A DNA stretch of 64,000 bases, from positions 1 to 64,000 of the forward strand of contig JAPYMA010003027.1 in the NCBI GenBank assembly GCA_035041965.1. The letters run 5' to 3'. This DNA is from Anisakis pegreffii. Lineage: Eukaryota > Nematoda > Chromadorea > Rhabditida > Anisakidae. Shown here one piece after another: positions 20,751 through 59,770 of the stretch. Under the pieces are notes generated by a model that saw nothing but the letters and a program-made list of their open reading frames with translations, did no database searches and had not been told where the DNA came from. The translations under genes and the position numbers were made by a program. The stretch's first letter is position 1, and the number at the start of each line of letters is the position of its first letter.

Positions 20751-21976
20751 AGGATGTGAAATACACGCACAATCAACAGCTACAGAAGCATAAACAAGTG
20801 TGAGCAAATAGACACACAAATATCCACGCAAATACAGAAATATCAAGCATAGAAATGGTTTCTGTGCGCATTTGAACAGGATTGTCAACGTTGTTTTTTT
20901 TGTTGTTTTCTTTGCTTGTTCGCTTTCTTTTCGCCCTGAGCTTCACTGGTGAGGGGGAGTGATCCTCATCCCCTTCTCGTTCATTCCAGTGTTCAGTTGA
21001 ATACCGTTTCGGCTCTGTTCGCCGGTCCACCAGATGGTGATGAACTGTCCATCCGGCTAGTTCATCACCATCTGGTGGACCATGCCCAGCCTCGAGGGGT
21101 TCGTCCGCCGTCTCTTCAGAGGTGGTAGGCGGTCTCCTGGTGGGCGATGAACTACCCGAGAGTGTGAATAAGGCTGATGAGCAGGCCGAAGTGGGAGACT
21201 TTAGTGCGGCTCCGAAAGAGAATTTTTGGGTGTGCTTCTCTTCTCATTAGTACCGCGTCATGTTGTATCAACTGTTACAGTATTGATTGCGTCGATATTG
21301 TCATTTCACATGTTTTTTCTTGCCACCATTCAATCTATCGTAAAATGATCCACAATTCCCAATATTCCTAACATGAGTTATTGTCAACCTCGTTGGAATC
21401 GGCTGCATCTTTACCTGTTGGGGACTCGAAGAGGTGGTTATTTGTTGTCGTCATTTTTTGATAAGTGGATTCCATTTGAATGAGGTTTGACGTTTTTGAT
21501 GAATTCCGAAATTTTGCCGAATTTTCGACGGTTTTTCCGAACAAACAACAGCGCGGTTGCGAATGTTGAAGAGCGATTCGAAAGTAGCGATGAACGATGA
21601 CAATTAGCAGACTGATTTTGGTGAGTAGCGTTTCAGCCGAAACTATTGCTGCTTTTGTGATTAACCGTACCTTTAGCAAAAGATCTTCGCTACTTCTTTG
21701 TCAGCGGTGCTATTAGCAGGTTATTTTCAGCGCAACAAAAAAAATTTTTTGTATATTATTAATTACCGAAGCTACTTTTTTCAGTAGTGCGGTAATCACT
21801 ACACGTCAACAGCAAGCACAAACTTCGAAGAAATATTTATTCATAACAGAAGGTGATTAAACAGCCGATAATATAAAACTAATCTATAGTAATTTATCAG
21901 AGAGATGAGTTGCAAAGAGTGTTTAGAGAAGCTGATAAGAAGGTGATTGATTAGATCGCTATCGGAGGGTTGCGGA
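20751..21976. other. 3' flank of the VWA gene, no gene recognised
   Basis: Apart from the hairpin at 21024-21081, nothing was identified. A 103-aa minus-strand frame (21368-21679) and an 85-aa frame (20773-21030) have no family signature. The 3' UTR of the minus-strand VWA gene should fall just below 21977. Confidence 0.45.
21024..21081. repeat. perfect 23-bp inverted repeat with 12-nt loop
   Basis: The left arm 21024-21046 begins GGTCCACCAGATGG and the right arm 21059-21081 is its exact reverse complement. The 12-nt loop is GTCCATCCGGCT. Pairing stops abruptly on the outside. It could form a stable RNA hairpin or a DNA cruciform, or be a foldback remnant. It lies in the 3' flank of the VWA gene. 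Confidence 0.85.
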
Positions 21977-24900
21977 TCAGTTGTTACCGCTCTTTTGATG
22001 TTCGTTCTGGAGTTCTTGATTTGCTCTTGGTTTCGCAGTTGCTGTTGTTGTTGGTTTCGGTGTTGATCGAGTTGGCTGCGGCGTGCATATCGCTTTGTTC
22101 ACCTGAGAGGATAACTGGTGATTACAATTAATAAAATCTATTTTTTAAATTGTTAATCCACGCATGATTGCGATGACATCTTTGGAGAACAAGAATGTTT
22201 GCCTCAGGCTCATTATTATAACATTCCTATTTATTGAATGTCTATTAATGAGATGACCGGGTTTGTAAACTCCATATTGCAAATTTTGTAGAATGCTCGC
22301 GGTTTTGATTCAGAACAAACCCGCAATAATAACGCAGTTTTACCACTCTGGCTGATTCTTGATGATTTCCTACCTCGTGAACGGCAGATTCATCGAATTG
22401 AGACACATGCAGCACTTCAGTACTGAGTTTCTCGAACAACTGCGCATTTGCAGATCCAGGAGCAACAATGATGAATCGATCACCATTCTTTGCGAGATCA
22501 CTTGCCAGCGGAACCGCTGCTTCGACATCCTTCACTGTTCTAAATCAAAATTGTTCGTTCGGTGTTACAGCTCGGAGAACAAATCAACCGCAATTGATCC
22601 AAAAAATTCCTCGAATACCTACCCGAATTTGATCGAGCAAGAGAATTATCGTGAAAATGAAACCTTTACGTTGGAATCCTTCGCTAAACAATAAAAAACC
22701 CACGTATTGTAAAGGAATATGAGAGACGCGACTTTCTTGTTTCTCCGACGATTGTGATCGATTTCCTGCTTAACAAATTCCATCCCCCTGTAAAGTGTGG
22801 CTGTTAAACGATATGATATGGAATTACAAACAAAAAGAAACTGAATATAATTAGTGACAAGAAATACGATTCCAGTAATGTTTAGTAACAGTCGGTCATC
22901 GAGGTGTGGTTGAATGAACAGCAGGAACGGAATGAATCGGACGAAAGACTTTATTTTTTCTCCTAACCGGTCCTCGAGAGTTAATGTTCGAGAACACTTC
23001 AGTATCAGTTTGTTCAGGTCAGCATAATCATATTTCTGTTCCAATCAAACTGTCCTATACCTGTTGAATTCCAATGAATGGAACTGAGCAGTTCCAGGAA
23101 AGACGCGAAGAAGAGGACGGAAAATAACGACTGAATAAAACAGTTCGTATGAAGTGTGGAACAGAAACACTACGTGATTAGTAACACTATGCAGTAAAAA
23201 GAAAAGTGTTAAAATGCATTTGAAGGGAAGACGTTCTGCGTGACTGAAATTCATAGTTATTCATCGATGAAACGATTTGAGAAATTTGTGAGGTTTAAAA
23301 GCGAAACATTATTCATACTGTTTGATATCCGTTCGATAACCCGGTCGTTCTGAACTGTACATCCACACCATTTCATCGAATACCTTAGCATTCGCATATT
23401 GGAATGGATGCGCACCCCAACTTGCCATTCCTCCTTGAAACGTACCGACCGCCACTTCAGTCTCCCACGGGTTAATATTCCACGATGGCGCAAGTTTTTT
23501 TCTAACGAATTCCACTTCCTACAGCACACATGTAATATTTATTTTCTTCATCCATTACCAGTTGATCATCTTGTAAATATGACAAAACGGTAACTGATGT
23601 GAGTACATTCTCACATTGAGGTACGTTTGTGTGGGAACTGCGCCGGAGAGATCCATACCAATCAACACATCATAATCACATCCCAAGCCAGGTTTCGGTC
23701 TGAAATTCAACAACAAATTACATTAGAGAATGCTGAAACCGGGAGTTTTTCGAGTAAAATAATTGTGTGGCTGATTTTTAGAAACACTACCATTCTCACA
23801 TATTTGAGAAAAGCGGGTAAAATTAAGACTTTCATAACGATAATAATTGTAATTAGTAAGTTTATTATTGTTCCTCAGGCAATAGGAGCGGGACGGAACC
23901 GTCAAAAATTCCAAACGGCTCTGGTTCCTGAGCTGGTCAGCATTTGAAACAGATAATTCAAAGTAATTGCTTACTTTGGCGTTGTCGCTGTACTATACCC
24001 AGGACAAGTATTGTCGAGAATCTGAAAATCCGTAATTTGGTTCTCGAACCTATCAAGATCATCGTTCATTTTATAGCGACTGAGATATGAAGATTTCAGT
24101 CCTCGTCCCCACTGGTATTACAACAGTCGCTTACAGGACTGTTCCGTCTCAGGACTTCAGAGCTTAGACAATGCAGAATTGCAAAGTTTACCTCATCAGC
24201 TAGAGCATCATCGTATCGAGTTGCAATAATCGGCTGCACGCCAAGAATTGTTTTGAAATTATTCGAATTGAATTGTGAGCCAATTCCAACAATGTTCACA
24301 CGTTGAGTCAAATTCGAATACAGTGATTTCACTTGTTTCAAGTCATCCGTTTCACTGCAAATATGTATCTCATCTTCAGTTTCGAAAGTAACTCAGCAGA
24401 ATTTCGTGGCGCGGTTTCAGTAATTTCAGTCTATCGAACCGCCATTTAAGAATTGGATTGATAATAATCTTCGATTGCGAGGGATTTAACGAAATAATAC
24501 GAGCAATAAAACATTCAATTTCAGTTGTTGATCTACTCTCTAGATTTTTGACTGACCTAATCAATCATGGAGCCCTATATTCATCGATTCCCTGGAGTAC
24601 GGGATTCTTGGAAACGTCAAAAAAGTGCAGACAGAGACAATTAATGGGCTGTTTGTTGATCAAATATTTATCTTAAACACATGGAAACGATGATGGTTAC
24701 TTTGCACTAAGTGCGTTCTAATGGGTTTAGTGCATTCACATGCACTGAACACATTTGAATGAATCTACCTGGTCGCTGTAAATAATGTGTAAGACGCTAC
24801 ATGTCCGAATCTTTGCCTGTTACTGATCAAGTAGTTTATTGCTTTGAATCCCCTGAAATATCGTTCAATGATGTGGATGATGATTTGCATTCCTTAGAAG

Positions 24901-27900
24901 AAGGAATCCTATCACTAAATTATACAAGAATGTTGATTTTGTGATGAATTTTCATCCTCCAGCGGCAAGAAAAATAATCTGGAATGTGTATGAGCATCAA
25001 AACAAACTCAGTAACACTCGGTGGTCCAAGAGATCCTATGTTGCTCATATTCTTCAAATCCCTTCTAAAGTCTGCGTCGTGGTGGTACCAGAATCCTCCG
25101 AACCACGGTGCTCCATCTTTACCGTACGCACCAATTGAAGCATCTGTCCATGATGGCATAACGTAAAATCTGCTGGCCAATTTGTTCGTCAGGAATGCGA
25201 CTTCCTGGAAGAGTCGTTGGCATGGCTTATGAAAAGCAATCTGCGCATGCCAGATATAATACACTACATTCCGTACGAAATTATTTTAATTTATCCCTGT
25301 TAATACTAAACAAATGATATTTTATTGCTAATATGCACTCCATGAGATGGCCTTTGCGGAATATCATGTGAGTTCCAGATAGGCAGTCCCGCTAATTTCA
25401 TGTCATGTCCTACTAGAATAACGTTGCAATATCGCAAAATAAACCTCTGCATATTGCTGATTTGTAACAGCCGTTGATCGATCCAAATAGAATGCAACGT
25501 CAGTGTCACAAGGAAGACCACCCGGATGAGGGCTGAAAATGGTTCAGTAATGTGGATTCTGTTTGGAAATTTCAAGTCAAGCATGAATTTATTTCCATAT
25601 GATCTCTTCAAACTTGGAGGAAACCAGGATGCAGATCGACAAGCTATTTCTAAATGACACTGGGAACTCAACCATTCGACCTCATAGTCGACCAGACGAA
25701 ACATGGAAGATGTTATCAATCAAAAGTCAACGTCATACGTTGGTTCAGTCGTTGTTGTTGGTTTCGGTGTTGATCGAGTTGGCTGCGGCGTGCATATCGC
25801 TTTGTTCATCTGAGAGGATAACTGGTGATTAGAATTAATGAAATCTATATTTTAAATTGTTAATTCACGCATGATTGCGATGACATCTTTGTAGAACAAG
25901 AATGTTTGCCTCAGGCTCATTATTATAACATTCCTATTTATTGAATGTCTATTAATGAGATGACCGGGTTTGTAAACTCCATATTGCAAATTTTGTAGAA
26001 TGCTCGCGGTTTTGATTCAGAACAAACCCGCAATAATAACGCAGTTTTACCACTCTGGCTGATTCTTGATGATTTCCTACCTCGTGAACGGCAGATTCAT
26101 CGAATTGAGACACATGCAGCACTTCAGTACTGAGTTTCTCGAACAACTGCGCATTTGCAGATCCAGGAGCAACAATGATGAATCGATCACCATTCTTTGC
26201 GAGATCACTTGCCAGCGGAACCGCTGCTTCGACATCCTTCACTGTTCTAAATCAAAATTGTTCGTTCGGTGTTACAGCTCGGAGAACAAACCAACCACAG
26301 TTGATCCAAAAAGTTCCTCGAATACCTACCCGAATTTGATCGAGCAAGAGAATCTTCGTGAAAATGAAAGCTTTACGTTGGAATCCTTCATTAAACAGAA
26401 TAAAAAACCTACGCATTGTAAAGGAATATGAGAGATGCGACTTTCTTGTTTTTCCGACGATTGGAATCGATTTCCTGCTTAACATATTCCATCCCCCTGC
26501 AAAGTGTGGCTGTTAAACGATATGATATTGAATTACAAACAAAAAGAAACTGAATATAATTAGTGACAAGAAATACGATTCCAGTAATGTTTGGTAACAG
26601 TCGGTCATGGTGGTGTGGTTGAATAACCAGCAGGAACGGAATGAATCGGACGAAGGACTAGTTTTTTCTCCTAACCGGTCATGGAGCGTTAATGTTTGAG
26701 AACATTTCAGTATCAGTTTGTTCAGGTCAGCATAATCATATTTCTGTTCCAATCAAACTGTCCTATACCTGTTGAATTCCAATGAATGGAACTGAGCAGT
26801 TCCAGGAAAGACGCGAAGAAGAGAACGGAATAGAACGACTGAATAGAACAGTTCGCAAGAAGTGTGGAACAGAAACATTACTTGATTAGTAACACTATGA
26901 TGGAAAATGAAAAGTGTTAAAATGCATTTGAAGGGAAGACGTTCTGCGTGACTGAAATTCATAGTTATTCAACCATGAAACGATGTGAGAAATTTGTGAG
27001 GTTTAAAAGCGAAACGTTATTCATACTGTTTGATATCCGTTCGAAAACCTGGTCGTTTTGAACTGTATAACCCCAGCATTTCATCGAATATCTTTGCATT
27101 CTCATATTGGAATGCATACGCACCCCAACTGGCCATTCCTCCTTGAAACGCACCGACCGCCACTTCAGTCTCCCACGGGTTAATATTCCACGATGGAGCA
27201 AGTTTTTTTCTAATGAATTCCACTTCCTACAGCACACATGTAATATTTACATTCTTCATTCATTAACAGTTGATCATCTTGTAAATATGACAAAACGGTA
27301 ACTGATCTAAATACATTCTCACATTGATATACGTTTGTGTGGGAACTGCGCTGGAGAGATCCATACCAATCAACACATCATAATCACATCCCAAGCCAGG
27401 TTTCGGTCTGAAATTCAACAACAAATTACATTAGAGAATGCTGAAACGGGGAGTTTTTCGAGTGGAATAATTGTGTGACTGATTTTTAGAAACACTACCA
27501 TTCTCATATATTTGAGAAAAGCCGGTAAATTTAAGACTTTCATAACGATAATAATTGTAATTAGTAAGTTTATTATTGTTCCTCAGGCAACAGGAGCGGG
27601 ACGGAACCGTCAAAAATTCCAAACAGCTCTGGTTCCTGAGCTGGTCAGCATTTGAAACAGATAATTCAAAGTAATTGCTTACTTTGGCGTTGTCGCTGTA
27701 CTATACCCAGGACAAATTTTGTCGAAAATCTGAAAATCCGTAATTTGGTTCTGGAACCTGTCAAGATCATCGTTCATTTTATAGCGACTGAGATATGAAG
27801 ATTTCAGTCCTCCTCCCCACTGGTATTACAACAGTCGCTTACAGGACTGTTCCGTCTCAGGACTTCAGAGCTTAGACAATGCAGAATTGCAATGTTTACC

Positions 27901-30900
27901 TCATCAGCTAGAGCATCATCGTATCGAGTTGCAATAATCGGCTGCACGCCAAGAATTGTTTTGAAATTATTCGAATTGAATTGTGAGCCAATTCCAACAA
28001 TGTTCACACTTTGAGTCAAATTGGAATACAATGATTTCACTTGTTTCAAGTCATCCGTTTCACTGCAAATATGTATCTCATCTTCAGTTTCGAAAGTAAC
28101 TCAGCAGAATTTCGTGGCGCGGTTTCAGTAATTTCAGTCTATCGAACCGCCATTTAAGAATTGGATTGATAATAATCTTCGATTGCGAGGGATTTAACGA
28201 AATAATACGAGCAATAAAACATTCAATTTCAGTTGTTGATCTACTCTCTAGATTTTTGACTGACCTAATCAATCATGGAGCCCTATATTCATCGATTCCC
28301 TGGAGTACGGGATTCTTGGAAACGTCAAAAAAGTGCAGACAGAGACAATTAATGGGCTGTTTGTTGATCAAATATTTATCTTAAACACATGGAAACGATG
28401 ATGGTTACTTTGCACTAAGTGCGTTCTAATGGGTTTAGTGCATTCACATGCACTGAACACATTTGAATGAATCTACCTGGTCGCTGTAAATAATGTGTAA
28501 GACGCTACATGTCCGAATCTTTGCCTGTTACTGATCAAGTAGTTTATTGCTTTGAATCCCCTGAAATATCGTTCAATGATGTGGATGATGATTTGCATTC
28601 CTTAGAAGAAGGAATCCTATCACTAAATTATACAAGAATGTTGATTTTGTGATGAATTTTCATCCTCCAGCGGCAAGAAAAATAATCTGGAATGTGTATG
28701 AGCATCAAAACAAACTCAGTAACACTCGGTGGTCCAAGAGATCCTATGTTGCTCATATTCTTCAAATCCCTTCTAAAGTCTGCGTCGTGGTGGTACCAGA
28801 ATCCTCCGAACCACGGTGCTCCATCTTTACCGTACGCACCAATTGAAGCATCTGTCCATGATGGCATAACGTAAAATCTGCTGGCCAATTTGTTCGTCAG
28901 GAATGCGACTTCCTGGAAGAGTCGTTGGCATGGCTTATGAAAAGCAATCTGCGCATGCCAGATATAATACACTACATTCCGTACGAAATTATTTTAATTT
29001 ATCCCTGTTAATACTAAACAAATGATATTTTATTGCTAATATGCACTCCATGAGATGGCCTTTGCGGAATATCATGTGAGTTCCAGATAGGCAGTCCCGC
29101 TAATTTCATGTCATGTCCTACTAGAATAACGTTGCAATATCGCAAAATAAACCTCTGCATATTGCTGATTTGTAACAGCCGTTGATCGATCCAAATAGAA
29201 TGCAACGTCAGTGTCACAAGGAAGACCACCCGGATGAGGGCTGAAAATGGTTCAGTAATGTGGATTCTGTTTGGAAATTTCAAGTCAAGCATGAATTTAT
29301 TTCCATATGATCTCTTCAAACTTGGAGGAAACCAGGATGCAGATCGACAAGCTATTTCTAAATGACACTGGGAACTCAACCATTCGACCTCATAGTCGAC
29401 CAGACGAAACATGGAAGATGTTATCAATCAAAAGTCAACGTCATACGTTGGTTCAGTCGTTGTTGTTGGTTTCGGTGTTGATCGAGTTGGCTGCGGCGTG
29501 CATATCGCTTTGTTCATCTGAGAGGATAACTGGTGATTAGAATTAATGAAATCTATATTTTAAATTGTTAATTCACGCATGATTGCGATGACATCTTTGT
29601 AGAACAAGAATGTTTGCCTCAGGCTCATTATTATAACATTCCTATTTATTGAATGTCTATTAATGAGATGACCGGGTTTGTAAACTCCATATTGCAAATT
29701 TTGTAGAATGCTCGCGGTTTTGATTCAGAACAAACCCGCAATAATAACGCAGTTTTACCACTCTGGCTGATTCTTGATGATTTCCTACCTCGTGAACGGC
29801 AGATTCATCGAATTGAGACACATGCAGCACTTCAGTACTGAGTTTCTCGAACAACTGCGCATTTGCAGATCCAGGAGCAACAATGATGAATCGATCACCA
29901 TTCTTTGCGAGATCACTTGCCAGCGGAACCGCTGCTTCGACATCCTTCACTGTTCTAAATCAAAATTGTTCGTTCGGTGTTACAGCTCGGAGAACAAACC
30001 AACCACAGTTGATCCAAAAAGTTCCTCGAATACCTACCCGAATTTGATCGAGCAAGAGAATCTTCGTGAAAATGAAAGCTTTACGTTGGAATCCTTCATT
30101 AAACAGAATAAAAAACCTACGCATTGTAAAGGAATATGAGAGATGCGACTTTCTTGTTTTTCCGACGATTGGAATCGATTTCCTGCTTAACATATTCCAT
30201 CCCCCTGCAAAGTGTGGCTGTTAAACGATATGATATTGAATTACAAACAAAAAGAAACCGAATATAATTAGTGACAAGAAATACGATTCCAGTAATGTTT
30301 GGTAACAGTCGGTCATGGTGGTGTGGTTGAATAACCAGCAGGAACGGAATGAATCGGACGAAGGACTAGTTTTTTCTCCTAACCGGTCATGGAGCGTTAA
30401 TGTTTGAGAACATTTCAGTATCAGTTTGTTCAGGTCAGCATAATCATATTTCTGTTCCAATCAAACTGTCCTATACCTGTTGAATTCCAATGAATGGAAC
30501 TGAGCAGTTCCAGGAAAGACGCGAAGAAGAGAACGGAATAGAACGACTGAATAGAACAGTTCGCAAGAAGTGTGGAACAGAAACATTACTTGATTAGTAA
30601 CACTATGATGGAAAATGAAAAGTGTTAAAATGCATTTGAAGGGAAGACGTTCTGCGTGACTGAAATTCATAGTTATTCAACCATGAAACGATGTGAGAAA
30701 TTTGTGAGGTTTAAAAGCGAAACGTTATTCATACTGTTTGATATCCGTTCGAAAACCTGGTCGTTTTGAACTGTATAACCCCAGCATTTCATCGAATATC
30801 TTTGCATTCTCATATTGGAATGCATACGCACCCCAACTGGCCATTCCTCCTTGAAACGCACCGACCGCCACTTCAGTCTCCCACGGGTTAATATTCCACG

Positions 30901-33900
30901 ATGGAGCAAGTTTTTTTCTAATGAATTCCACTTCCTACAGCACACATGTAATATTTACATTCTTCATTCATTAACAGTTGATCATCTTGTAAATATGACA
31001 AAACGGTAACTGATCTAAATACATTCTCACATTGATATACGTTTGTGTGGGAACTGCGCTGGAGAGATCCATACCAATCAACACATCATAATCACATCCC
31101 AAGCCAGGTTTCGGTCTGAAATTCAACAACAAATTACATTAGAGAATGCTGAAACGGGGAGTTTTTCGAGTGGAATAATTGTGTGACTGATTTTTAGAAA
31201 CACTACCATTCTCATATATTTGAGAAAAGCCGGTAAATTTAAGACTTTCATAACGATAATAATTGTAATTAGTAAGTTTATTATTGTTCCTCAGGCAACA
31301 GGAGCGGGACGGAACCGTCAAAAATTCCAAACAGCTCTGGTTCCTGAGCTGGTCAGCATTTGAAACAGATAATTCAAAGTAATTGCTTACTTTGGCGTTG
31401 TCGCTGTACTATACCCAGGACAAATTTTGTCGAAAATCTGAAAATCCGTAATTTGGTTCTGGAACCTGTCAAGATCATCGTTCATTTTATAGCGACTGAG
31501 ATATGAAGATTTCAGTCCTCCTCCCCACTGGTATTACAACAGTCGCTTACAGGACTGTTCCGTCTCAGGACTTCAGAGCTTAGACAATGCAGAATTGCAA
31601 TGTTTACCTCATCAGCTAGAGCATCATCGTATCGAGTTGCAATAATCGGCTGCACGCCAAGAATTGTTTTGAAATTATTCGAATTGAATTGTGAGCCAAT
31701 TCCAACAATGTTCACACTTTGAGTCAAATTGGAATACAATGATTTCACTTGTTTCAAGTCATCCGTTTCACTGCAAATATGTATCTCATCTTCAGTTTCG
31801 AAAGTAACTCAGCAGAATTTCGTGGCGCGGTTTCAGTAATTTCAGTCTATCGAACCGCCATTTAAGAATTGGATTGATAATAATCTTCGATTGCGAGGGA
31901 TTTAACGAAATAATACGAGCAATAAAACATTCAATTTCAGTTGTTGATCTACTCTCTAGATTTTTGACTGACCTAATCAATCATGGAGCCCTATATTCAT
32001 CGATTCCCTGGAGTACGGGATTCTTGGAAACGTCAAAAAAGTGCAGACAGAGACAATTAATGGGCTGTTTGTTGATCAAATATTTATCTTAAACACATGG
32101 AAACGATGATGGTTACTTTGCACTAAGTGCGTTCTAATGGGTTTAGTGCATTCACATGCACTGAACACATTTGAATGAATCTACCTGGTCGCTGTAAATA
32201 ATGTGTAAGACGCTACATGTCCGAATCTTTGCCTGTTACTGATCAAGTAGTTTATTGCTTTGAATCCCCTGAAATATCGTTCAATGATGTGGATGATGAT
32301 TTGCATTCCTTAGAAGAAGGAATCCTATCACTAAATTATACAAGAATGTTGATTTTGTGATGAATTTTCATCCTCCAGCGGCAAGAAAAATAATCTGGAA
32401 TGTGTATGAGCATCAAAACAAACTCAGTAACACTCGGTGGTCCAAGAGATCCTATGTTGCTCATATTCTTCAAATCCCTTCTAAAGTCTGCGTCGTGGTG
32501 GTACCAGAATCCTCCGAACCACGGTGCTCCATCTTTACCGTACGCACCAATTGAAGCATCTGTCCATGATGGCATAACGTAAAATCTGCTGGCCAATTTG
32601 TTCGTCAGGAATGCGACTTCCTGGAAGAGTCGTTGGCATGGCTTATGAAAAGCAATCTGCGCATGCCAGATATAATACACTACATTCCGTACGAAATTAT
32701 TTTAATTTATCCCTGTTAATACTAAACAAATGATATTTTATTGCTAATATGCACTCCATGAGATGGCCTTTGCGGAATATCATGTGAGTTCCAGATAGGC
32801 AGTCCCGCTAATTTCATGTCATGTCCTACTAGAATAACGTTGCAATATCGCAAAATAAACCTCTGCATATTGCTGATTTGTAACAGCCGTTGATCGATCC
32901 AAATAGAATGCAACGTCAGTGTCACAAGGAAGACCACCCGGATGAGGGCTGAAAATGGTTCAGTAATGTGGATTCTGTTTGGAAATTTCAAGTCAAGCAT
33001 GAATTTATTTCCATATGATCTCTTCAAACTTGGAGGAAACCAGGATGCAGATCGACAAGCTATTTCTAAATGACACTGGGAACTCAACCATTCGACCTCA
33101 TAGTCGACCAGACGAAACATGGAAGATGTTATCAATCAAAAGTCAACGTCATACGTTGGTTCAGTCGTTGTTGTTGGTTTCGGTGTTGATCGAGTTGGCT
33201 GCGGCGTGCATATCGCTTTGTTCATCTGAGAGGATAACTGGTGATTAGAATTAATGAAATCTATATTTTAAATTGTTAATTCACGCATGATTGCGATGAC
33301 ATCTTTGTAGAACAAGAATGTTTGCCTCAGGCTCATTATTATAACATTCCTATTTATTGAATGTCTATTAATGAGATGACCGGGTTTGTAAACTCCATAT
33401 TGCAAATTTTGTAGAATGCTCGCGGTTTTGATTCAGAACAAACCCGCAATAATAACGCAGTTTTACCACTCTGGCTGATTCTTGATGATTTCCTACCTCG
33501 TGAACGGCAGATTCATCGAATTGAGACACATGCAGCACTTCAGTACTGAGTTTCTCGAACAACTGCGCATTTGCAGATCCAGGAGCAACAATGATGAATC
33601 GATCACCATTCTTTGCGAGATCACTTGCCAGCGGAACCGCTGCTTCGACATCCTTCACTGTTCTAAATCAAAATTGTTCGTTCGGTGTTACAGCTCGGAG
33701 AACAAACCAACCACAGTTGATCCAAAAAGTTCCTCGAATACCTACCCGAATTTGATCGAGCAAGAGATTCTTCGTGAAAATGAAAGCTTTACGTTGGAAT
33801 CCTTCATTAAACAGAATAAAAAACCTACGCATTGTAAAGGAATATGAGAGATGCGACTTTCTTGTTTTTCCGACGATTGGAATCGATTTCCTGCTTAACA

Positions 33901-36900
33901 TATTCCATCCCCCTGCAAGGTGTGGCTGTTAAACGATATGATATTGAATTACAAACGAAAAGAAACTGAATATAATTAGTGACAAGAAATACGATTCCAG
34001 TAATGTTTGGTAACAGTCGGTCATGGTGGTGTGGTTGAATAACCAGCAGGAACGGAATGAATCGGACGAAGGACTAGTTTTTTCTCCTAACCGGTCATGG
34101 AGCGTTAATGTTTGAGAACATTTCAGTATCAGTTTGTTCAGGTCAGCATAATCATATTTCTGTTCCAATCAAACTGTCCTATACCTGTTGAATTCCAATG
34201 AATGGAACTGAGCAGTTCCAGGAAAGACGCGAAGAAGAGAACGGAATAGAACGACTGAATAGAACAGTTCGCAAGAAGTGTGGAACAGAAACATTACTTG
34301 ATTAGTAACACTATGATGGAAAATGAAAAGTGTTAAAATGCATTTGAAGGGAAGACGTTCTGCGTGACTGAAATTCATAGTTATTCAACCATGAAACGAT
34401 GTGAGAAATTTGTGAGGTTTAAAAGCGAAACGTTATTCATACTGTTTGATATCCGTTCGAAAACCTGGTCGTTTTGAACTGTATAACCCCAGCATTTCAT
34501 CGAATATCTTTGCATTCTCATATTGGAATGCATACGCACCCCAACTGGCCATTCCTCCTTGAAACGCACCGACCGCCACTTCAGTCTCCCACGGGTTAAT
34601 ATTCCACGATGGAGCAAGTTTTTTTCTAATGAATTCCACTTCCTACAGCACACATGTAATATTTACATTCTTCATTCATTAACAGTTGATCATCTTGTAA
34701 ATATGACAAAACGGTAACTGATCTAAATACATTCTCACATTGATATACGTTTGTGTGGGAACTGCGCTGGAGAGATCCATACCAATCAACACATCATAAT
34801 CACATCCCAAGCCAGGTTTCGGTCTGAAATTCAACAACAAATTACATTAGAGAATGCTGAAACGGGGAGTTTTTCGAGTGGAATAATTGTGTGACTGATT
34901 TTTAGAAACACTACCATTCTCATATATTTGAGAAAAGCCGGTAAATTTAAGACTTTCATAACGATAATAATTGTAATTAGTAAGTTTATTATTGTTCCTC
35001 AGGCAACAGGAGCGGGACGGAACCGTCAAAAATTCCAAACAGCTCTGGTTCCTGAGCTGGTCAGCATTTGAAACAGATAATTCAAAGTAATTGCTTACTT
35101 TGGCGTTGTCGCTGTACTATACCCAGGACAAATTTTGTCGAAAATCTGAAAATCCGTAATTTGGTTCTGGAACCTGTCAAGATCATCGTTCATTTTATAG
35201 CGACTGAGATATGAAGATTTCAGTCCTCCTCCCCACTGGTATTACAACAGTCGCTTACAGGACTGTTCCGTCTCAGGACTTCAGAGCTTAGACAATGCAG
35301 AATTGCAATGTTTACCTCATCAGCTAGAGCATCATCGTATCGAGTTGCAATAATCGGCTGCACGCCAAGAATTGTTTTGAAATTATTCGAATTGAATTGT
35401 GAGCCAATTCCAACAATGTTCACACTTTGAGTCAAATTGGAATACAATGATTTCACTTGTTTCAAGTCATCCGTTTCACTGCAAATATGTATCTCATCTT
35501 CAGTTTCGAAAGTAACTCAGCAGAATTTCGTGGCGCGGTTTCAGTAATTTCAGTCTATCGAACCGCCATTTAAGAATTGGATTGATAATAATCTTCGATT
35601 GCGAGGGATTTAACGAAATAATACGAGCAATAAAACATTCAATTTCAGTTGTTGATCTACTCTCTAGATTTTTGACTGACCTAATCAATCATGGAGCCCT
35701 ATATTCATCGATTCCCTGGAGTACGGGATTCTTGGAAACGTCAAAAAAGTGCAGACAGAGACAATTAATGGGCTGTTTGTTGATCAAATATTTATCTTAA
35801 ACACATGGAAACGATGATGGTTACTTTGCACTAAGTGCGTTCTAATGGGTTTAGTGCATTCACATGCACTGAACACATTTGAATGAATCTACCTGGTCGC
35901 TGTAAATAATGTGTAAGACGCTACATGTCCGAATCTTTGCCTGTTACTGATCAAGTAGTTTATTGCTTTGAATCCCCTGAAATATCGTTCAATGATGTGG
36001 ATGATGATTTGCATTCCTTAGAAGAAGGAATCCTATCACTAAATTATACAAGAATGTTGATTTTGTGATGAATTTTCATCCTCCAGCGGCAAGAAAAATA
36101 ATCTGGAATGTGTATGAGCATCAAAACAAACTCAGTAACACTCGGTGGTCCAAGAGATCCTATGTTGCTCATATTCTTCAAATCCCTTCTAAAGTCTGCG
36201 TCGTGGTGGTACCAGAATCCTCCGAACCACGGTGCTCCATCTTTACCGTACGCACCAATTGAAGCATCTGTCCATGATGGCATAACGTAAAATCTGCTGG
36301 CCAATTTGTTCGTCAGGAATGCGACTTCCTGGAAGAGTCGTTGGCATGGCTTATGAAAAGCAATCTGCGCATGCCAGATATAATACACTACATTCCGTAC
36401 GAAATTATTTTAATTTATCCCTGTTAATACTAAACAAATGATATTTTATTGCTAATATGCACTCCATGAGATGGCCTTTGCGGAATATCATGTGAGTTCC
36501 AGATAGGCAGTCCCGCTAATTTCATGTCATGTCCTACTAGAATAACGTTGCAATATCGCAAAATAAACCTCTGCATATTGCTGATTTGTAACAGCCGTTG
36601 ATCGATCCAAATAGAATGCAACGTCAGTGTCACAAGGAAGACCACCCGGATGAGGGCTGAAAATGNNNNNNNNNNNNNNNNNNNNNNNNNNNNNNNNNNN
36701 NNNNNNNNNNNNNNNNNNNNNNNNNNNNNNNNNNNNNNNNNNNNNNNNNNNNNNNNNNNNNNNNNGTAACAGTCGGTCATGGTGGTGTGGTTGAATAACC
36801 AGCAGGAACGGAATGAATCGGACGAAGGACTAGTTTTTTCTCCTAACCGGTCATGGAGCGTTAATGTTTGAGAACATTTCAGTATCAGTTTGTTCAGGTC

Positions 36901-39800
36901 AGCATAATCATATTTCTGTTCCAATCAAACTGTCCTATACCTGTTGAATTCCAATGAATGGAACTGAGCAGTTCCAGGAAAGACGCGAAGAAGAGAACGG
37001 AATAGAACGACTGAATAGAACAGTTCGCAAGAAGTGTGGAACAGAAACATTACTTGATTAGTAACACTATGATGGAAAATGAAAAGTGTTAAAATGCATT
37101 TGAAGGGAAGACGTTCTGCGTGACTGAAATTCATAGTTATTCAACCATGAAACGATGTGAGAAATTTGTGAGGTTTAAAAGCGAAACGTTATTCATACTG
37201 TTTGATATCCGTTCGAAAACCTGGTCGTTTTGAACTGTATAACCCCAGCATTTCATCGAATATCTTTGCATTCTCATATTGGAATGCATACGCACCCCAA
37301 CTGGCCATTCCTCCTTGAAACGCACCGACCGCCACTTCAGTCTCCCACGGGTTAATATTCCACGATGGAGCAAGTTTTTTTCTAATGAATTCCACTTCCT
37401 ACAGCACACATGTAATATTTACATTCTTCATTCATTAACAGTTGATCATCTTGTAAATATGACAAAACGGTAACTGATCTAAATACATTCTCACATTGAT
37501 ATACGTTTGTGTGGGAACTGCGCTGGAGAGATCCATACCAATCAACACATCATAATCACATCCCAAGCCAGGTTTCGGTCTGAAATTCAACAACAAATTA
37601 CATTAGAGAATGCTGAAACGGGGAGTTTTTCGAGTGGAATAATTGTGTGACTGATTTTTAGAAACACTACCATTCTCATATATTTGAGAAAAGCCGGTAA
37701 ATTTAAGACTTTCATAACGATAATAATTGTAATTAGTAAGTTTATTATTGTTCCTCAGGCAACAGGAGCGGGACGGAACCGTCAAAAATTCCAAACAGCT
37801 CTGGTTCCTGAGCTGGTCAGCATTTGAAACAGATAATTCAAAGTAATTGCTTACTTTGGCGTTGTCGCTGTACTATACCCAGGACAAATTTTGTCGAAAA
37901 TCTGAAAATCCGTAATTTGGTTCTGGAACCTGTCAAGATCATCGTTCATTTTATAGCGACTGAGATATGAAGATTTCAGTCCTCCTCCCCACTGGTATTA
38001 CAACAGTCGCTTACAGGACTGTTCCGTCTCAGGACTTCAGAGCTTAGACAATGCAGAATTGCAATGTTTACCTCATCAGCTAGAGCATCATCGTATCGAG
38101 TTGCAATAATCGGCTGCACGCCAAGAATTGTTTTGAAATTATTCGAATTGAATTGTGAGCCAATTCCAACAATGTTCACACTTTGAGTCAAATTGGAATA
38201 CAATGATTTCACTTGTTTCAAGTCATCCGTTTCACTGCAAATATGTATCTCATCTTCAGTTTCGAAAGTAACTCAGCAGAATTTCGTGGCGCGGTTTCAG
38301 TAATTTCAGTCTATCGAACCGCCATTTAAGAATTGGATTGATAATAATCTTCGATTGCGAGGGATTTAACGAAATAATACGAGCAATAAAACATTCAATT
38401 TCAGTTGTTGATCTACTCTCTAGATTTTTGACTGACCTAATCAATCATGGAGCCCTATATTCATCGATTCCCTGGAGTACGGGATTCTTGGAAACGTCAA
38501 AAAAGTGCAGACAGAGACAATTAATGGGCTGTTTGTTGATCAAATATTTATCTTAAACACATGGAAACGATGATGGTTACTTTGCACTAAGTGCGTTCTA
38601 ATGGGTTTAGTGCATTCACATGCACTGAACACATTTGAATGAATCTACCTGGTCGCTGTAAATAATGTGTAAGACGCTACATGTCCGAATCTTTGCCTGT
38701 TACTGATCAAGTAGTTTATTGCTTTGAATCCCCTGAAATATCGTTCAATGATGTGGATGATGATTTGCATTCCTTAGAAGAAGGAATCCTATCACTAAAT
38801 TATACAAGAATGTTGATTTTGTGATGAATTTTCATCCTCCAGCGGCAAGAAAAATAATCTGGAATGTGTATGAGCATCAAAACAAACTCAGTAACACTCG
38901 GTGGTCCAAGAGATCCTATGTTGCTCATATTCTTCAAATCCCTTCTAAAGTCTGCGTCGTGGTGGTACCAGAATCCTCCGAACCACGGTGCTCCATCTTT
39001 ACCGTACGCACCAATTGAAGCATCTGTCCATGATGGCATAACGTAAAATCTGCTGGCCAATTTGTTCGTCAGGAATGCGACTTCCTGGAAGAGTCGTTGG
39101 CATGGCTTATGAAAAGCAATCTGCGCATGCCAGATATAATACACTACATTCCGTACGAAATTATTTTAATTTATCCCTGTTAATACTAAACAAATGATAT
39201 TTTATTGCTAATATGCACTCCATGAGATGGCCTTCGCGGAATATCATGTGAGTTCCAGATAGGCAGTCCCGCTAATTTCATGTCATGTCCTACTAGAATA
39301 ACGTTGCAATATCGCAAAATAAACCTCTGCATATTGCTGATTTGTAACAGCCGTTGATCGATCCAAATAGAATGCAACGTCAGTGTCACAAGGAAGACCA
39401 CCCGGATGAGGGCTGAAAATGGTTTAGTAATGTGGATTCCGTTTGCAAACATGAATTTGTTTCCATATGATCTCATCAAACTTGGAAGGGACCAGGATGC
39501 TGATGGACGAGCTATTTTGACAGTATGAAATCGACCGTCTAATCTGATGGTCTAATACACGAACTATAGAGGAAAGCAATATTCATAAGTAACTGTTAAG
39601 TCCTACGTTGGATGAGATTTAGTTGTTGTTGATGATGTTGCTGTTGATGTTGTTGTTGTTGTTGGTGGTGGTGATGATGTTGTTGTTGTTGGTGGTGATG
39701 ATGTTGTTGTTGGTGGTGGTGGTGATGTTGTTGTTGTTGATGATGATGATGGTTTCGGTGTTGGTTGCGGAGTCATTGTCGGGCACGGTGGGCAAGTTGT
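21977..39800 (-). CDS. multi-VWA-domain protein gene built from tandem exon blocks (5' end not found)
   Basis: Each 3.7-kb block encodes two von Willebrand factor A domains, usually extracellular adhesion modules. VWA-a starts with PCDTDVAFYLDRSTAVT and continues with FQEVAFLTNKLASRFYVMP. VWA-b starts with GCDYDVLIGMDLS and continues with EVEFIRKKLAPSWNI and later DLAKNGDRFIIVAPGSANA. Exons of VWA-b in the lowest block are 23699-23615, 23518-23319, 22683-22619, 22534-22374. A linker exon (for example 25821-25739, CTPQPTRSTPKP) starts in phase 0 and ends with two spare bases, and the VWA-a exon of the next block (25532) begins with the one base needed. The same holds for 39800-39607, a Ser/Thr/Pro-rich linker. 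The last linker (22114-21977) lacks the donor and ends in TGA. Hence one gene rather than separate copies is favoured. Exons between about 24000 and 24700 are only partly resolved. Both MIDAS loops read DxSxA instead of DxSxS. Confidence 0.75.
22045..25738 (-). repeat. VWA exon block A (C-terminal, partly divergent)
   Basis: This block aligns with block B at an offset of 3,707-3,708. Its parts 22190-22560 and about 24350-25738 are essentially identical to block B, while about 22565-24330 differs at many positions. The VWA-b exon at 23319-23518 differs from block B at about a dozen residues. It alone keeps a TTTAG acceptor before the exon 22683-22619. Confidence 0.9.
25739..29446 (-). repeat. 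VWA exon block B (3,708 bp)
   Basis: This full block repeats with period 3,708. By eye it differs from block C at one base (position 26539 versus 30247 region, T versus C within AGAAACTGAAT). It encodes linker exon 25821-25739 and one VWA-b/VWA-a pair. The acceptor before the third VWA-b exon reads TTTAA rather than TTTAG. Confidence 0.93.
29447..33154 (-). repeat. VWA exon block C (3,708 bp)
   Basis: This block is nearly identical to block B along its whole length. Linker exon is 29529-29447 and the VWA-a first exon starts at 29240 in block B and 32948 here. Confidence 0.93.
33155..36665 (-). repeat. VWA exon block D, runs into assembly gap
   Basis: This block matches C with a few substitutions (about 33769, 33918 and 33957). 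It stops at the N run just above the start of its VWA-a first exon (36656). Confidence 0.93.
36666..36765. other. assembly gap of exactly 100 N
   Basis: The sequence before the gap corresponds to block position 29248 and the sequence after it to about 30302. At least the linker exon and the last two VWA-b exons of a block are therefore missing. The round length suggests a placeholder, so any number of further blocks could be hidden. Confidence 0.97.
36766..39480 (-). repeat. VWA exon block E (partial, top of array)
   Basis: This is the part of a block from VWA-b upwards to the VWA-a first exon (39412 downwards). Identity with the other blocks fades after about 39420. It is the N-terminal-most block visible. 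Confidence 0.9.
39607..39800 (-). CDS. Ser/Thr/Pro-rich linker exon of the VWA gene
   Basis: This 194-nt exon starts in phase 0 after AATTAAG and ends CCAAC before GTAGGA. It encodes TTCPPCPTMTPQPTPKP followed by runs of Ser, Thr and Pro, made from imperfect TTG/GGT/GAT triplet repeats as read on the plus strand. It aligns with the shorter linker exon of the other blocks through PQPT..PKP. Such linkers are commonly O-glycosylated in extracellular proteins. The triplet runs make its length prone to change. Confidence 0.65.
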
Positions 39801-41280
39801 CTTAATTAATGGAATTTTAATAACGAGCTCTTTTCTTTAGTGCCTATCACATTCAATCACATGTAATTGTGCAATAAACATTCTCAATGGTTTCTCGTCT
39901 ATTATGAACATAAAATAATTTCATTATATCCCGGACGATGTTCAGCGAAGCGAACAGACTAACACTTAAACTGGCAACAGACTTATAACCCTAGGATCAG
40001 GTGATGACTGACTTACAGTCATTAGTTTGCTAATGAAATTTATTTGAATATCCATTCTGACTAAATTATGAACTGGATCGTGGAACAGTGAAAGTGAAAT
40101 GAAGTTTTGAGCGAAAAGTTGACTTATGCAAATGTATTGTAATTCGAATTTTATTATGATTGGGAATTAAATGTTGGCTTATCAGCTGAACTGCAAGATG
40201 ACCGATTCGAATTCATGCTCACCGCGTGTTCTTTCACTCTGAGATCACTTCAACTTTATACTTCTAAAGGTGCTCAAGTGAGGGCTTGCAAAAGTATACT
40301 GAGTCATATCCCGACCTCTTCACTTCATTTAAACAATAATCAATGATATATGGGAGCTGAATGCAATACATGACGAAAAAATGACTGACACTTTTCCCCG
40401 GTATTTTATTCAAGATCAAGAGACATTGGAAGTATCAGTTCAAGACTAATTCAAGACTAACCGATGTTTTGAATGTTGTTGTTGTGGTATCGGTTACTGA
40501 AATGTTCTTTATCAGAATCCCTTTATTGTGTAACTTGTTTGGAATGGAAACTGATTTCAACTTCAATAGGTTTCACTAATGCACACTTAGCAATCGAATT
40601 GTCGAAAGTACAATTTACTTACAATTAGAATACATCACTGAAATTCCACTGTTTGTTGTCTGATCTATAATATATGTTCAACGCGAATCGTTTCATACGA
40701 TTAATAATCCTTTCGAACGATTACATGCGAATCTTTCGCAGGATTCATATGTGAAAAATAGTTCTCATATAAGAGAGAATACAGAATCATTATCGAATGA
40801 AATGAAGTCGCAATCACCCTTTCCAATCTGCTTGTGAATGTGCACTTTCAATCACCATAAAAAACATCCACCTATCCTTATCAATATAATCACTTTAATT
40901 CGCCACAGAAAAAAAAACTTATCTTCATACGTTTAGATTTCAACAGAATACGTATGAAACTCACTGTTTTCCAATGGGATACACATTGGCGATAACATAG
41001 CACTAGGTTCTCGATTGTCTGAAACGAGTAATTCGGTGTCATATATTGGTAATTTGGTGAGCTCGACTGTTCAAAACCACCTTTTGAAGTGGATGGGTGA
41101 AAAGAGAGAGCTTGAAACAGATTTTTAGAATCTCCTAATGATCAAAGCGAAGAATCTGCTGAAATCAAAACAATGGCCTATAATATGCCGAAAGACAAAT
41201 TTTATTGTTGGAGAATTGGAATTTCATTGTGTAGAAGAATCAGCCTTCGTGACGAATCCTAATAAAATTTCAACGCTCAC

Positions 41281-41420
41281 CGATCGTTTTTTCAACGGTT
41301 GCACCAAACATGCTATTGATTTTCGCCTTCAATTCATGCAGTTTCGGAGCATTGTTGGCTGTGTATGACATACCGGACACTACCGCGACACCACCGCGTT
41401 GATCATCTGCTATACCCAAA
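41281..41420 (-). CDS. candidate internal exon, family not recognised
   Basis: The stretch is bounded by a TTGCAG acceptor and an ATCG|GTGAGC donor. It encodes 46 residues beginning LGIADDQRGGVAVVSG and ending FGATVEKTI, with one spare base at each end. The composition looks like real coding sequence. It could be an upstream exon of the VWA gene or part of another minus-strand gene starting near 44471. I cannot name the family. Confidence 0.45.
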
Positions 41421-42998
41421 CTGCAATTCGAAATACTCTCCGTTCAAAATTCTTTTCCCCGTGATATGATCCTCATCATAGAATTCAGTTTGTGTTGATT
41501 ATTTCCTACACAGAATTCAATTCAGTTTGTGTTGATTATTCCCTGCACGAAAATTGTGCTCTTGAATTTCGCTTAGCAAGCCCAAGAGTATTTTTACGGT
41601 GTCACGAAACCATTCCAAATGCTGCGTGTGCAATGATGGAAAGAACTTCATTCCATTGGGTGAATCAAATTTTGAATGCATTATCCATGTTCATGTTGTT
41701 TTGATACACTCAAAGTATCGCACTATAACTTACATTGTTATTGAGGCGCCCTTGCAGCAATGAATCTCTCTCTTTTGACGTTTATGCTGAGGACTATCAG
41801 CACCATTCGCCGCTCCGTTCAGCGCATACTCCAACTAGCAATTCAATGTTTCGTTATCGGATAATTTCTCAGTTATTGTATCAATTTCCAATTTCCTCAA
41901 TCGATGATGCGAATTTTCGAACCAATAATTCACCACAAAATGAGAAAGAAACATCGACGACACTTCTCCAATAACAAAAGGCAATGAAGAAGCATCTTCA
42001 TCGCTCACTTTGCAATATTTCCAACTTTTTGATATATGAATAAGGTTGATAATCACTTCATCAGTTGATAAACATGGAACACCTAATAGAAGAGGAAAAA
42101 TGCTGAGCTTAAGGATCTCAATTTTTAATAAGAACTTTTTTGAAGATGCACTGCTCTTCGATCTTCTGAACTATCACTGATATCTTACTTAGGTGCAAAA
42201 AATGATTATAAAATCATTATCTTCTTCGGCACTGACTATTATTACCGATAATCATCAACTTTTATTGCTTCTAGAAAAACCTTGACCGTTATCAGCAAGA
42301 AGATAACGATCGAATTTCGTGCGTGAACGTTAAACGTCACCGAGTAAGTTAAAACGATTATTTTGCAAATTTTCCTACTTTACGATTTGAAATTTTTTCC
42401 GATATCTAACAAAGCAAACAATGAAGGAATCGTCAATGAAGTGCAGATCGTTTGGAACGTAGAAATATCATTCGTAATCGATTGAAAAGAGGAATCGAAG
42501 AACCGTGAGTGATACCTATTCTATCAACAAAAAAAAAACGTTGCCCTTTGACAAGAAGCTCAATAAGGTGTTCAGGTATCGAAGAGGATTTTCTGACAAA
42601 CCTGTGATTGAATTTTGCGAGCGGCAGACGCATAATCTTGTTGGACTTCAGAATACGAAAATTGCGAGAGGCGAATGGTGAAATAGTACGAAACTGCATG
42701 GTTCAATTTTCCTACAAGCGAAAATCAGTTCATAGATGCCAAGTAAATAACTTTTCAGATTAATATAGTCAAAAAAGAAATCACGAAGCTAGAGAAGTCT
42801 TGGCAAAGTATTGCTTGATTTCATGATCATTTTCTGGTTGTTGGACTGTTATTCTGTGCGAACATTCTCTGAATCGAAGACCAGTTTCGTGGCAAAAATT
42901 TTAATTTAATGCAGAAGCCATGTCCATAGCCATACAGCCGTTCTTAAGCACTTTGTTTGCTCCGAATGGGAGAATAATTACAAAGAATGATTTATGAC

Positions 42999-44116
42999 TA
43001 GGGTTTGCAAAATCCCGACGTTTTTTCAATCCCGGGATCGATTTTTGATCCCGGGATAATCCGGGGATCGAACAATTTTTGTAATATCGATGCGGGACAT
43101 GTTCAAACACATTTTTTCGAACCAATATGTTCATTAATAATCATAAAGGAGTTAATTCAACGAATTATTGAATAAATCCAAGAAACCAAATTATTCAAAT
43201 TCAAATTGATATTTCAGATAATGATAATAATGATCATGCCACAAAGGCATACTGCGTTCTCAGGCATCTTGTCATCTCGGGTCTAAGCTAATAACAATAC
43301 ACTTGCATGTGAATATGAAATTCTTGATTCCCAAACACTTATTTGCAATGCTTCAAGTCCATTTTCTATCAGTATTAACGTCAGCTGAATTCTGCCGTTT
43401 CAAAAATTTCGATCTTTACGAAAGGAATGCATCGTATGAATTATATCATTTGAATTTTGAAATAACTAAAAGTTCACAGATTTATCGAAAAAGTGAAAAA
43501 AAAACACCCGCAATGAATTTTCATCGAACCATCAAGCACTTAGGTATTTGATAATTTCGATCAGAAATCAAGGAAATAAACCTTTTGAATGGAACAATTT
43601 TGCTCACTTCGACAATGAATTCTCACTATGAGTGAATTCAGTGAGAATTTATGTACATTTCGATCGGATGAAAATGTTTCCAAGTAAAAAGACTTGCAGT
43701 CTTTGGAACATGCAGTTGAATTAACAGATGGAATATTGAAGCCGAACAAATCTTGTGGGAGGAAACGACTCAAAATTTCATTGAACTTTGTTGCTCTTGG
43801 TTTTTATTAGAAAATGTGATGATCTCTGTTAGTCTATTACATAAAATCACTTGAATGTTCAATAAAATGTTACGTAAAAGTTCATCGAGCTGTCGTTGGT
43901 CATGTCATTCATCCAACTAGCGTCTATTTCCTTAGCTATTCATCAATGATAGAGGGCAAGCAGCAAAAATGACTGCATATGTATGAGATGGGAATGATTA
44001 AGGCTTGCTTCAAGATGAGCATACTATCAAAATTCATGCAAATTGACCTGCTTTATCAACTACCGAAATCCCGGGATTTTTCAGAACTTAAATCCCGAGA
44101 TCCCTTGCAAACCCTA
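42999..44116. mobile_element. non-autonomous hAT element, copy 2 (1,118 bp)
   Basis: Ends read TAGGGTTTGCAAAATCCCG and CTTGCAAACCCTA. Flanks TTTATGAC (42991-42998) and TTAATGAC (44117-44124) match at 7 of 8 bases. It shares the ATCCCGGGAT subterminal palindromes and interior with the copies at 9606 and 59771. No transposase is encoded. Confidence 0.92.
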
Positions 44117-44371: not shown

Positions 44372-44471
44372 TTATTTCTTGACGGTTTTGAAATTGTACG
44401 ATAAGACCGGCGAGAATGCCAGCAATGGCAACAACACCAGCGATCAAGTTCAATAACCCGAAAAGCTTCAT
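44372..44471 (-). CDS. candidate first coding exon with signal/membrane anchor
   Basis: From ATG at 44471 the frame encodes MKLFGLLNLIAGVV followed by further hydrophobic residues and QFQNRQEI, then ATAA|GTAAGT, a strong donor. The hydrophobic run of about 22 residues would act as a signal peptide or membrane anchor. An alternative is an internal exon joined to sequence near 44560-44600. It might belong with the exon at 41281-41420. Confidence 0.4.
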
Positions 44472-45211
44472 CCCAAATCTAAAAGTCACATTCCTCACCA
44501 ATCAAATGTACATGCACAAATAATACGCTATTCTCGACGCGTTCTTAATATCGTCTATTACCGAATGGATTTGTTTTCTGAAAATATCCAATGATGCCAC
44601 CGAATTTCATCATTGCGGGAAATATCACTGCAAAATGAACAGTGGACAAATCGATTCGTGAAAGTTGAAGGCGTGGCTGAATTAGTTCTCATCGTTGTGA
44701 TATCAAGTCAGTCAGAATCGTACGTGATGGTACTTACTGGGTTGACTGAGCGCTTGAAAAAGACTGATTATAAGGTTCATTCTTGTCAGCAATTCGGAGA
44801 TGAGTGAAAACCAGATTCATCGAGTGACGAAAGAAGAAAAATCGGTATTCGTATTATGCTTATAAGTCCAACAAAATGAATTCATGTTGAGCCAAGAAAG
44901 TATACAAGACAGTCAAATGGAAACGTTGGAAATTCGTTGGGAGATTTTTCTTATGCTTTTATGGCGTAATCGAAATGATCAAAATTGAAAATTTGGAAAG
45001 TGATGAGACCGATGTCGAGTATTGAATCGAAACCGAGGTTTTCGTAGATTCTGAGCGCCCTTTAATCAACCAAAGCAAACAATCCAAGATCTGAACATCA
45101 AATGACCGAGAGCAGTGGACGTCTGATCAGTCAAAGCATTGTTAGTCTGTGAAGCACATTTACCATTTGTGAAAGCTCTCCGCAAAGCTGACTTAAAAGC
45201 TTCTCGCTAAT
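44472..45211. other. no gene recognised
   Basis: A minus-strand candidate exon around 44560-44610 (hydrophobic, before a GTAATA donor) was seen but could not be joined in phase with confidence. The rest shows nothing. Confidence 0.4.
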
Positions 45212-50890: not shown

Positions 50891-51060
50891 CGATAGATGA
50901 GTTGAACGGAGTGGGGCGGCTTTCTGCATGGTTGGGTGGACTTATGACGCACCATTCGAAGGCACGATAGCCTTCCTTTCTTTGACCTCTTTATTGGATT
51001 TGTGGAACGAGGAAAAGGGGAAGAGACCCTGGAATTACAACACAATGACAATACAGCAAT

Positions 51061-51201
51061 AATGAAATCGACTATCGATCACAGTGATAAAGCAATGAGT
51101 GACGGGTGATAGGGCTGAACGGCGAGTGCCGATGAACGACGTTGAATTATCGAGGGACGGGACGAGTGAGGTGGTCGGAGTGCGGGTTAACAACCTGAAG
51201 T
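51061..51201. other. leader of the BEL/Pao element
   Basis: This non-coding stretch lies between the hairpin array and the gag region (element read on the minus strand). It is GC-richer than the window average. A primer-binding site was looked for but none was named. Confidence 0.4.
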
Positions 51202-53678: not shown

Positions 53679-53688
53679 NNNNNNNNNN
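53679..53688. other. assembly gap of 10 N
   Basis: The gap joins the Pao RNase H fragment to a second occurrence of sequence already present at 52830-53455. The junction may be an assembly artefact. Confidence 0.97.
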
Positions 53689-56482: not shown

Positions 56483-56715
56483 GTAAACATTTGAAACCAA
56501 TCCAGAGGATACATCACTTAATGCGAGGTGGTCCTGTCCAGTAGATCAATTGTTTTAATCGAATGCAGTGTTCCAAAACCGAGGATTTTTCCAACTATAA
56601 TCAGTTGTACGAGACCTTTGAATGCTTCCAATAGTGCATACTCAACCTGCCATCTGCTATTATACAACTGAACGATAGTTTCGAAAATTTTCATATCTGT
56701 TCGAATGATTCGCAG

Positions 56716-59762: not shown

Positions 59763-59770
59763 GTCTTTGC

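Follow-up and report, generated by a model that had tools for sequence, protein, structure and literature searches.

A ten-exon block coding for two VWA domains, repeated in tandem in what is probably one gene of Anisakis pegreffii

The window analysed here is a stretch of 64,000 nucleotides of the nematode Anisakis pegreffii (assembly GCA_035041965.1, contig JAPYMA010003027.1, positions 1 to 64,000), located on contig C1699 of a genome of 122.7 Mb in 1,740 contigs. On its minus strand, between 44,478 and about 21,840, lie six 5' exons followed by an array of tandem exon blocks, and each block codes for two VWA domains (V1 and V2). Read from the sequence, the array probably represents a single gene (we put the probability at about 0.8), lengthened in frame by copying of a ten-exon block. 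The original prediction had placed a gene growing by tandem duplication at 21,977-39,800. The low end of that interval coincides with the stop codon, whereas at the high end the gene reaches 44,478.

The locus and its surroundings

The tandem copies of the block are spaced 3,707-3,708 bp, as anticipated from a first inspection. Their units, from low to high, are B1 (22,044-25,750), B2 (25,751-29,458), B3 (29,459-33,166), B4 (33,167-36,665) and B5 (36,766-39,517). Four copies (B1-B4) lie in gapless sequence; the fifth is cut because 100 N at 36,666-36,765, overlooked in the original prediction, fall inside the array. The features are given below in the order of transcription (P0001, P0002 and so on are relatives in ascarids, treated in the next section):

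44372..44478, minus: exon N1, with the start codon at 44,471 and a signal-anchor- or signal-peptide-like segment, MKLFGLLNLIAGVVAIAGILAGLIVQ (hydropathy 2.54; aligns with the start of P0001 and P0002)
42602..42711, minus: exon N2, first part of a SEA-like region (the N2/N3 boundary matches, in our interpretation, a break in the gene models of P0007 and P0005)
41734..41834, minus: exon N3, with a furin-like site (RQKR|E) ahead of CC
41281..41420, minus: exon N4, second part of the SEA-like region
40462..40496, minus: exon N5, Thr-rich
39607..39800, minus: exon N6, CPPCPT and a Thr/Pro linker, ending in phase 2 (CPPCPT is common to P0001, P0002 and P0003)
37199..39412, minus: block B5, from V1a at 39,412 to V2b at 37,199, 7 of 10 exons, the remainder lost in the gap
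36666..36765, no strand: 100-N scaffold gap within the array
33155..36656, minus: block B4, ten exons (V1a-e, V2a-d, linker)
32949..33154, minus: block-border intron, B4 to B3
29447..32948, minus: block B3, ten exons
29241..29446, minus: block-border intron, B3 to B2
25739..29240, minus: block B2, ten exons
25533..25738, minus: block-border intron, B2 to B1 (shares 146 of 189 aligned bases, with 22 gap columns, with the intron that precedes the first block)
21977..25532, minus: block B1, ten exons, the last (22,114-21,977) with the only stop of the array
21836..21841, minus: AATAAA, a poly(A)-signal-like site about 135 bp past the stop

The coding part of a block consists of 10 exons and 1,197 nt (399 codons), namely V1a to V1e of 88, 197, 84, 163 and 47 nt (V1, 579 nt) and V2a to V2d with the linker of 85, 200, 84, 166 and 83 nt (V2, 618 nt). 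All 47 visible block exons (10 each in B1-B4 and 7 in B5) are preceded by AG and 46 of them are followed by GT, the exception being the terminal exon of B1, which ends in the stop codon at 21,979-21,977; the expectation that only the lowest block would carry a stop was correct. Translation is open from B4 to B1 and the AG/GT sites are kept across the three visible block borders. At all three, two spare bases of the linker exon are completed to a codon by one base of V1a, as had been proposed, and the same join is found at the entry from N6, the last of the six 5' exons (44,478-39,607), which join in phase to V1a of B5. The splice sites were picked by reading for frame, so the agreement of frame within a block is not independent support. 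The intron phases are 0, 2, 2, 0 and 2 in V1, repeated in V2, and phase 2 at the block borders. V1, V2 and the block are therefore symmetric phase-2 modules whose gain or loss as a whole preserves the frame, and the identical phases suggest that V1 and V2 stem from an earlier duplication of a module of five exons.

An anchor-like start was found only upstream of the array. The maximum of hydropathy over 19 residues is 2.54 in exon N1 and 1.14 in the translation of the one block tested (B2 type), which has no anchor-like stretch; this agrees with the earlier remark that no block has its own start with a signal peptide, and the possibility of a separate gene per block was rejected on this ground. 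The idea of one gene growing in frame is well supported by the upstream-only start, the phase-2 modules, the single stop with its poly(A)-signal-like site and the existence of single-block relatives. A second locus elsewhere was also rejected, since the block protein has 43 matches in the own genome and 42 of them lie inside the array (these protein and DNA searches score best candidates only, and the window's own blocks were not among the matches of the DNA search, which thus gives no copy count). The remaining match is an orphan piece of exon V2b with its donor on contig C1715 (L030:4184-4302), with 119 bp that are 87% identical in DNA; no other exon match was found within the surrounding 8.5 kb.

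Two clearly distinct types of block are present, one represented by B1 and the other by B2-B5. Over 3,499-3,708 bp the number of differing sites is 1 for B2/B3, 3 for B2/B4 and 4 for B3/B4; four sites alone, all inside 200 bp, distinguish B2-B4. A comparison of B5 with any of these three over 2,656 bp shows 1 differing site, which is private to B5. The blocks had been described as almost unchanged, which is true of B2-B5 (1-4 sites) and not of B1, about 5% diverged between 24,353 and 22,551.

Several repeats were observed within and around the gene. The V2b-V2c intron of B3 contains, at 30440-30590, an old interspersed repeat that is 68-84% identical to pieces on some 30 other contigs, and this repeat-bearing intron sequence is common to the other blocks. 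Another interspersed repeat of about 0.8-1.2 kb (pieces 83-92% identical) is present at 9834-10609, at 59770-60953 and at 42998-44102, the last copy within the N1-N2 intron. Upstream of the gene, a BEL/Pao-type retrotransposon on the minus strand (47131-51078; with reverse transcriptase, Pao peptidase A17 and DUF1759), a possible cause of the strong GC skew seen at 48-52 kb, is flanked by direct copies that are about 98% identical and about 6.6 kb apart (45212-47381 and 51809-54314). A second direct duplication (55502-57136 and 61794-63691, about 6.45 kb apart, pieces 78-95% identical) holds a Cys-rich, secreted-looking open reading frame (56,083-56,541 and 62,534-62,992), and the one copy tested had no Pfam match at E <= 0.01. 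On the other side of the gene, minus-strand exons of a papain-like cysteine protease lie at 12398-13573, with Peptidase_C1 in the open reading frame 12,398-12,727; that at 13,241-13,573 resembles, by eye, the start of the protease and had no Pfam match.

Domains and ascarid relatives

In a profile search of the joined exons against the Pfam VWA family (PF00092), whole blocks scored 32.2 bits (B2 type) and 33.4 bits (B1), above the curated cut-off of 23.8, with two stretches per block at E <= 1, which bears out the two VWA domains predicted per block; taken singly, V1 (21.8 bits) and V2 (14.5 bits) fall under the cut-off. An earlier exon join with other starts of V1d and V1e reached 27.2 bits, against 32.2 for the final join, and was discarded. 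The metal-site motif MIDAS has the form DxSxS..T..D. It is incomplete, by eye, in the aligned domains (DRSTA and DLSSA/DLSGA, with FTATS or FLYNA/FLYNT at the TDG position), so the VWA modules are probably not metal-dependent. Sequences in the PDB gave no match to a block at E <= 1.

Relatives were found by a search with a one-block model, followed by an alignment search (4 and 6 matches, respectively), whereas a search with the 1,840-residue long model yielded no relative at E <= 0.001. The matches are proteins of Ascaris, Parascaris and Toxocara, among them P0002 (A0A914ZNF2, Parascaris univalens), P0003 (A0A9J2Q8Y0, Ascaris lumbricoides) and P0005 and P0006 (Toxocara canis); P0004 is an unrelated low scorer and P0007 a fragmentary model. 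P0001-P0003 align with the gene model across the exon joins, and several ascarid models carry what we interpret as unspliced-intron-like errors at V1a/V1b (P0006), V1b/V1c (P0003, P0005) and N2/N3 (P0005, P0007). The ascarid proteins in this way provide independent support for the joins.

P0001 and P0002 share with the Anisakis gene the N-terminal hydrophobic segment, the SEA-like region with CC and the CPPCPT linker, and their domains are 57-59% (V1) and 49-51% (V2) identical to those found here; P0003, P0005 and P0006 show part of these features only. With the same N-terminus, the same linker and orthologous V1 and V2, the gene and the ascarid VWFA protein qualify as orthologues. The RQKR site of N3 has a counterpart in P0006 (RVKR), and no such site is present in P0001-P0005 and P0007. 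In the full-length P0001 and P0002 a single V1-V2 block is preceded by another VWA domain (VWA-A), whereas in the Anisakis gene V1-V2 is repeated and VWA-A was not found. In a domain tree of 11 sequences, in which B1 and B2 alone, out of the five blocks, stand for this species, the V1 domains form a group with those of the ascarids and the V2 domains do likewise, and B1 and B2 pair with a support of 100/100 (V1) and 93/84 (V2). From this pairing the blocks probably multiplied after the split from the ascarids, and their growth looks lineage-specific. In Ascaris, a VWFA domain-containing protein, not necessarily the counterpart of this gene, is reported to be high in the seminal vesicle (PMC9768952).

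For P0001, Pfam recognised three VWA stretches (E 9.9e-17). Its predicted structure is of low confidence (pLDDT 48.4, pTM 0.29), so that the fold matches are weak support; among the best 50 of 83 PDB matches at E <= 0.001, the top ones are mostly VWA structures, with a few TFIIH or helicase entries. The top Foldseek match is PTMP1 of the mussel byssus (PDB 4cn8; 431 columns, E 1.3e-9), itself a tandem VWA protein; it is, in contrast, a mollusc matrix protein of 15% identity. The N-terminal region had no match to Pfam SEA at E <= 1, and its order in the low-confidence model (strand-helix-strand-strand-helix-strand) fits the SEA topology. The protein would begin with the anchor-like segment, followed by the SEA-like region, CPPCPT, the mucin-like Thr/Pro linker and then the pairs of VWA domains, and its features suggest a single-pass or secreted protein of the adhesion type, probably membrane-anchored.

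Copy number and alternative readings

Several of our observations weigh against a simple lengthening of one functional gene, and the first concerns the number of blocks. Both ends of the 100-N gap lie at repeat branch points: the lower piece ends 9 bp above V1a, 3 bp before the contexts of the border and of N6 diverge, and the upper piece begins 43 bp above the first position at which B2-B4 can be told apart. The drawn copy number was therefore probably the assembler's choice. Secondly, P0001 has 26 matches in the own genome (E <= 0.001), of which none falls in its residues 148-434 (VWA-A), so that adding blocks to the ascarid architecture does not by itself yield the one seen here. The domain tree, moreover, came with a warning of the tool that its long V1 and V2 branches meet, and it has a midpoint root only. 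Finally, amino-acid-changing sites in the diverged stretch of B1 and B2 differ as much as the introns do (22.5/453 versus 61/1,224; Fisher p = 1.0, on 22/453; dN 0.051, dS 0.071), which leaves no detectable sign of purifying selection between blocks, and in 23% of random trials the 31 coding changes create no stop by chance alone. Relaxed or diversifying change in the extra copies is possible on these figures.

The most serious alternative, to which we give somewhat more than one chance in three, is that the gene truly has several blocks and that the number shown is a product of the assembly, the real one being two or three copies, or many more. The near-identical B2-B5 would then partly reflect the walk of the assembler through a repeat loop, with allelic variants counted as copies. 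This agrees with the position of the gap ends and with the separation of B2-B4 by only four sites within 200 bp, and also with a second gap in the window (10 N at 53,679-53,688), where the following 626 bases are present exactly before the gap as well, perhaps an assembly overlap. Against it stand the four blocks in gapless sequence and the private site by which B5 differs from B2, B3 and B4. The two block types, the 23% diverged border intron and the mosaic tracts described below require at least two real blocks, and a simple assembly duplication of one block was rejected because of the two types and the diverged border intron. Whatever the assembler did, there are two types of block, the border intron differs from the entry intron and the terminal exon is distinct; at least two blocks (four VWA domains) are therefore certain, while four blocks are gapless and five are drawn. 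In the drawn assembly this amounts to 9 complete VWA domains and one cut after 2 of its 5 exons (8 in gapless sequence); the predicted minimum of ten VWA domains is thus not secured, given the gap and its ends at branch points. This alternative is compatible with our preferred reading, the single gene lengthened in frame, which leaves the number open.

We consider it rather improbable that a retained border intron ends transcripts at any block, giving nested products in a graded series of protein lengths. Reading on past the linker exon leads to a stop after five codons (YDVDF*) in all three internal blocks, and the border intron holds an AATAAA, AAATAAAT; by our reading of the alignment, AACAAA stands at this place in the entry intron. 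The border does, however, have a canonical donor and acceptor, and AATAAA is common by chance in A+T-rich DNA, with another one at 22,235 in an intron of B1. Least likely is a functional one-block gene in or beside which a tandem duplication, decaying or non-coding, makes up the extra blocks: the frequent amino-acid-changing differences of B1 and B2 and the single-block relatives would suit it, but every block has kept its splice sites and its frame as far as visible, the diverged stretch has 0 indels in exons against 3 gap columns in introns (a small sample), the fused border exon retains a canonical donor and its phase, and the array lies between the first exon of the gene and its last, so that transcription must cross it.

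Origin of the blocks and known parallels

The internal linker exon equals the terminal exon up to a stretch of Thr codons, ACCAACAACAAC, and continues with CCAAC and the border intron. The latter resembles the N6-V1a intron (146/189 aligned bases and 22 gap columns, 23% diverged), with an alignment score of 86.5, where the best of 300 shuffles reached -6.5. The simplest reading is that the linker exon at the border is a fusion of the terminal exon with N6, the exon before the first VWA domain, at the Thr-codon repeat. The first duplication of the block may have arisen when the Thr-codon (ACA) repeats in N6 and in the terminal exon recombined, which would have created both the fused exon and its border intron, and unequal crossing-over and gene conversion could then have multiplied and homogenised the blocks. 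B1 and B2 form a mosaic in which 1,427 identical bp are followed by a stretch of about 5% divergence (24,353-22,551; 61/1,224 differences in introns and 31/578 in exons), by 399 bp identical between two differences and then by slight differences. By simple arithmetic the chance of such a 399-bp run at 5% divergence is near 1e-9. The mosaic shows exchange between blocks.

Coding arrays of several exons within a gene are already known from LPA and nebulin, and what is new here is the case of a nematode VWA protein; in the literature searched, at the level of titles and abstract openings, no description of this gene or array was found. The kringle IV-2 repeat of human LPA is reported to have a unit of two exons and 5.5 kb in 1 to more than 40 copies, and duplication or gene conversion is named as the source of variants that several copies of an allele share (PMC4378929). 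Both systems have a multi-exon coding unit in tandem within one gene; in LPA it has 2 exons, 5.5 kb and one kringle, compared with 10 exons, 3.7 kb and two VWA domains in Anisakis. Several traits expected of an array of the LPA kind were found here, namely units of whole codons (1,197 nt), phase-2 borders, an anchor-like start predicted only upstream and, for homogenisation, the mosaic of identical and 5% diverged stretches. Nebulin, a muscle filament protein, is not known to have VWA domains or a Thr/Pro linker exon. Its human triplicate region is reported to consist of eight exons present three times (PMC9109913), and copy-number change has been reported for it (PMC12402328).

As to function, further blocks would lengthen an arm of VWA modules displayed on a surface or shed from it, the copy number setting its reach and the number of binding sites. 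More tentatively still, and with a probability that we set clearly below even, this may be a surface or shed adhesion protein whose length changes rapidly and varies between individuals. Recombination would then tend to produce longer or shorter in-frame proteins, since the phase-2 modules have Thr-codon repeats at both ends, while the repeated VWA domains drift neutrally or diversify and exchange between blocks spreads the variants. Variation of copy number between individuals, of which the analysis covered one assembly, is plausible, and draft assemblies can miscount such arrays. The locus illustrates how a protein can be lengthened stepwise, through a five-exon module with matching phases, an old duplication giving V1 and V2 and a younger duplication of the block joined at Thr repeats. 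If the copy number does vary between worms, the gene would offer a natural series of length polymorphisms in a surface-type protein, comparable with human LPA.
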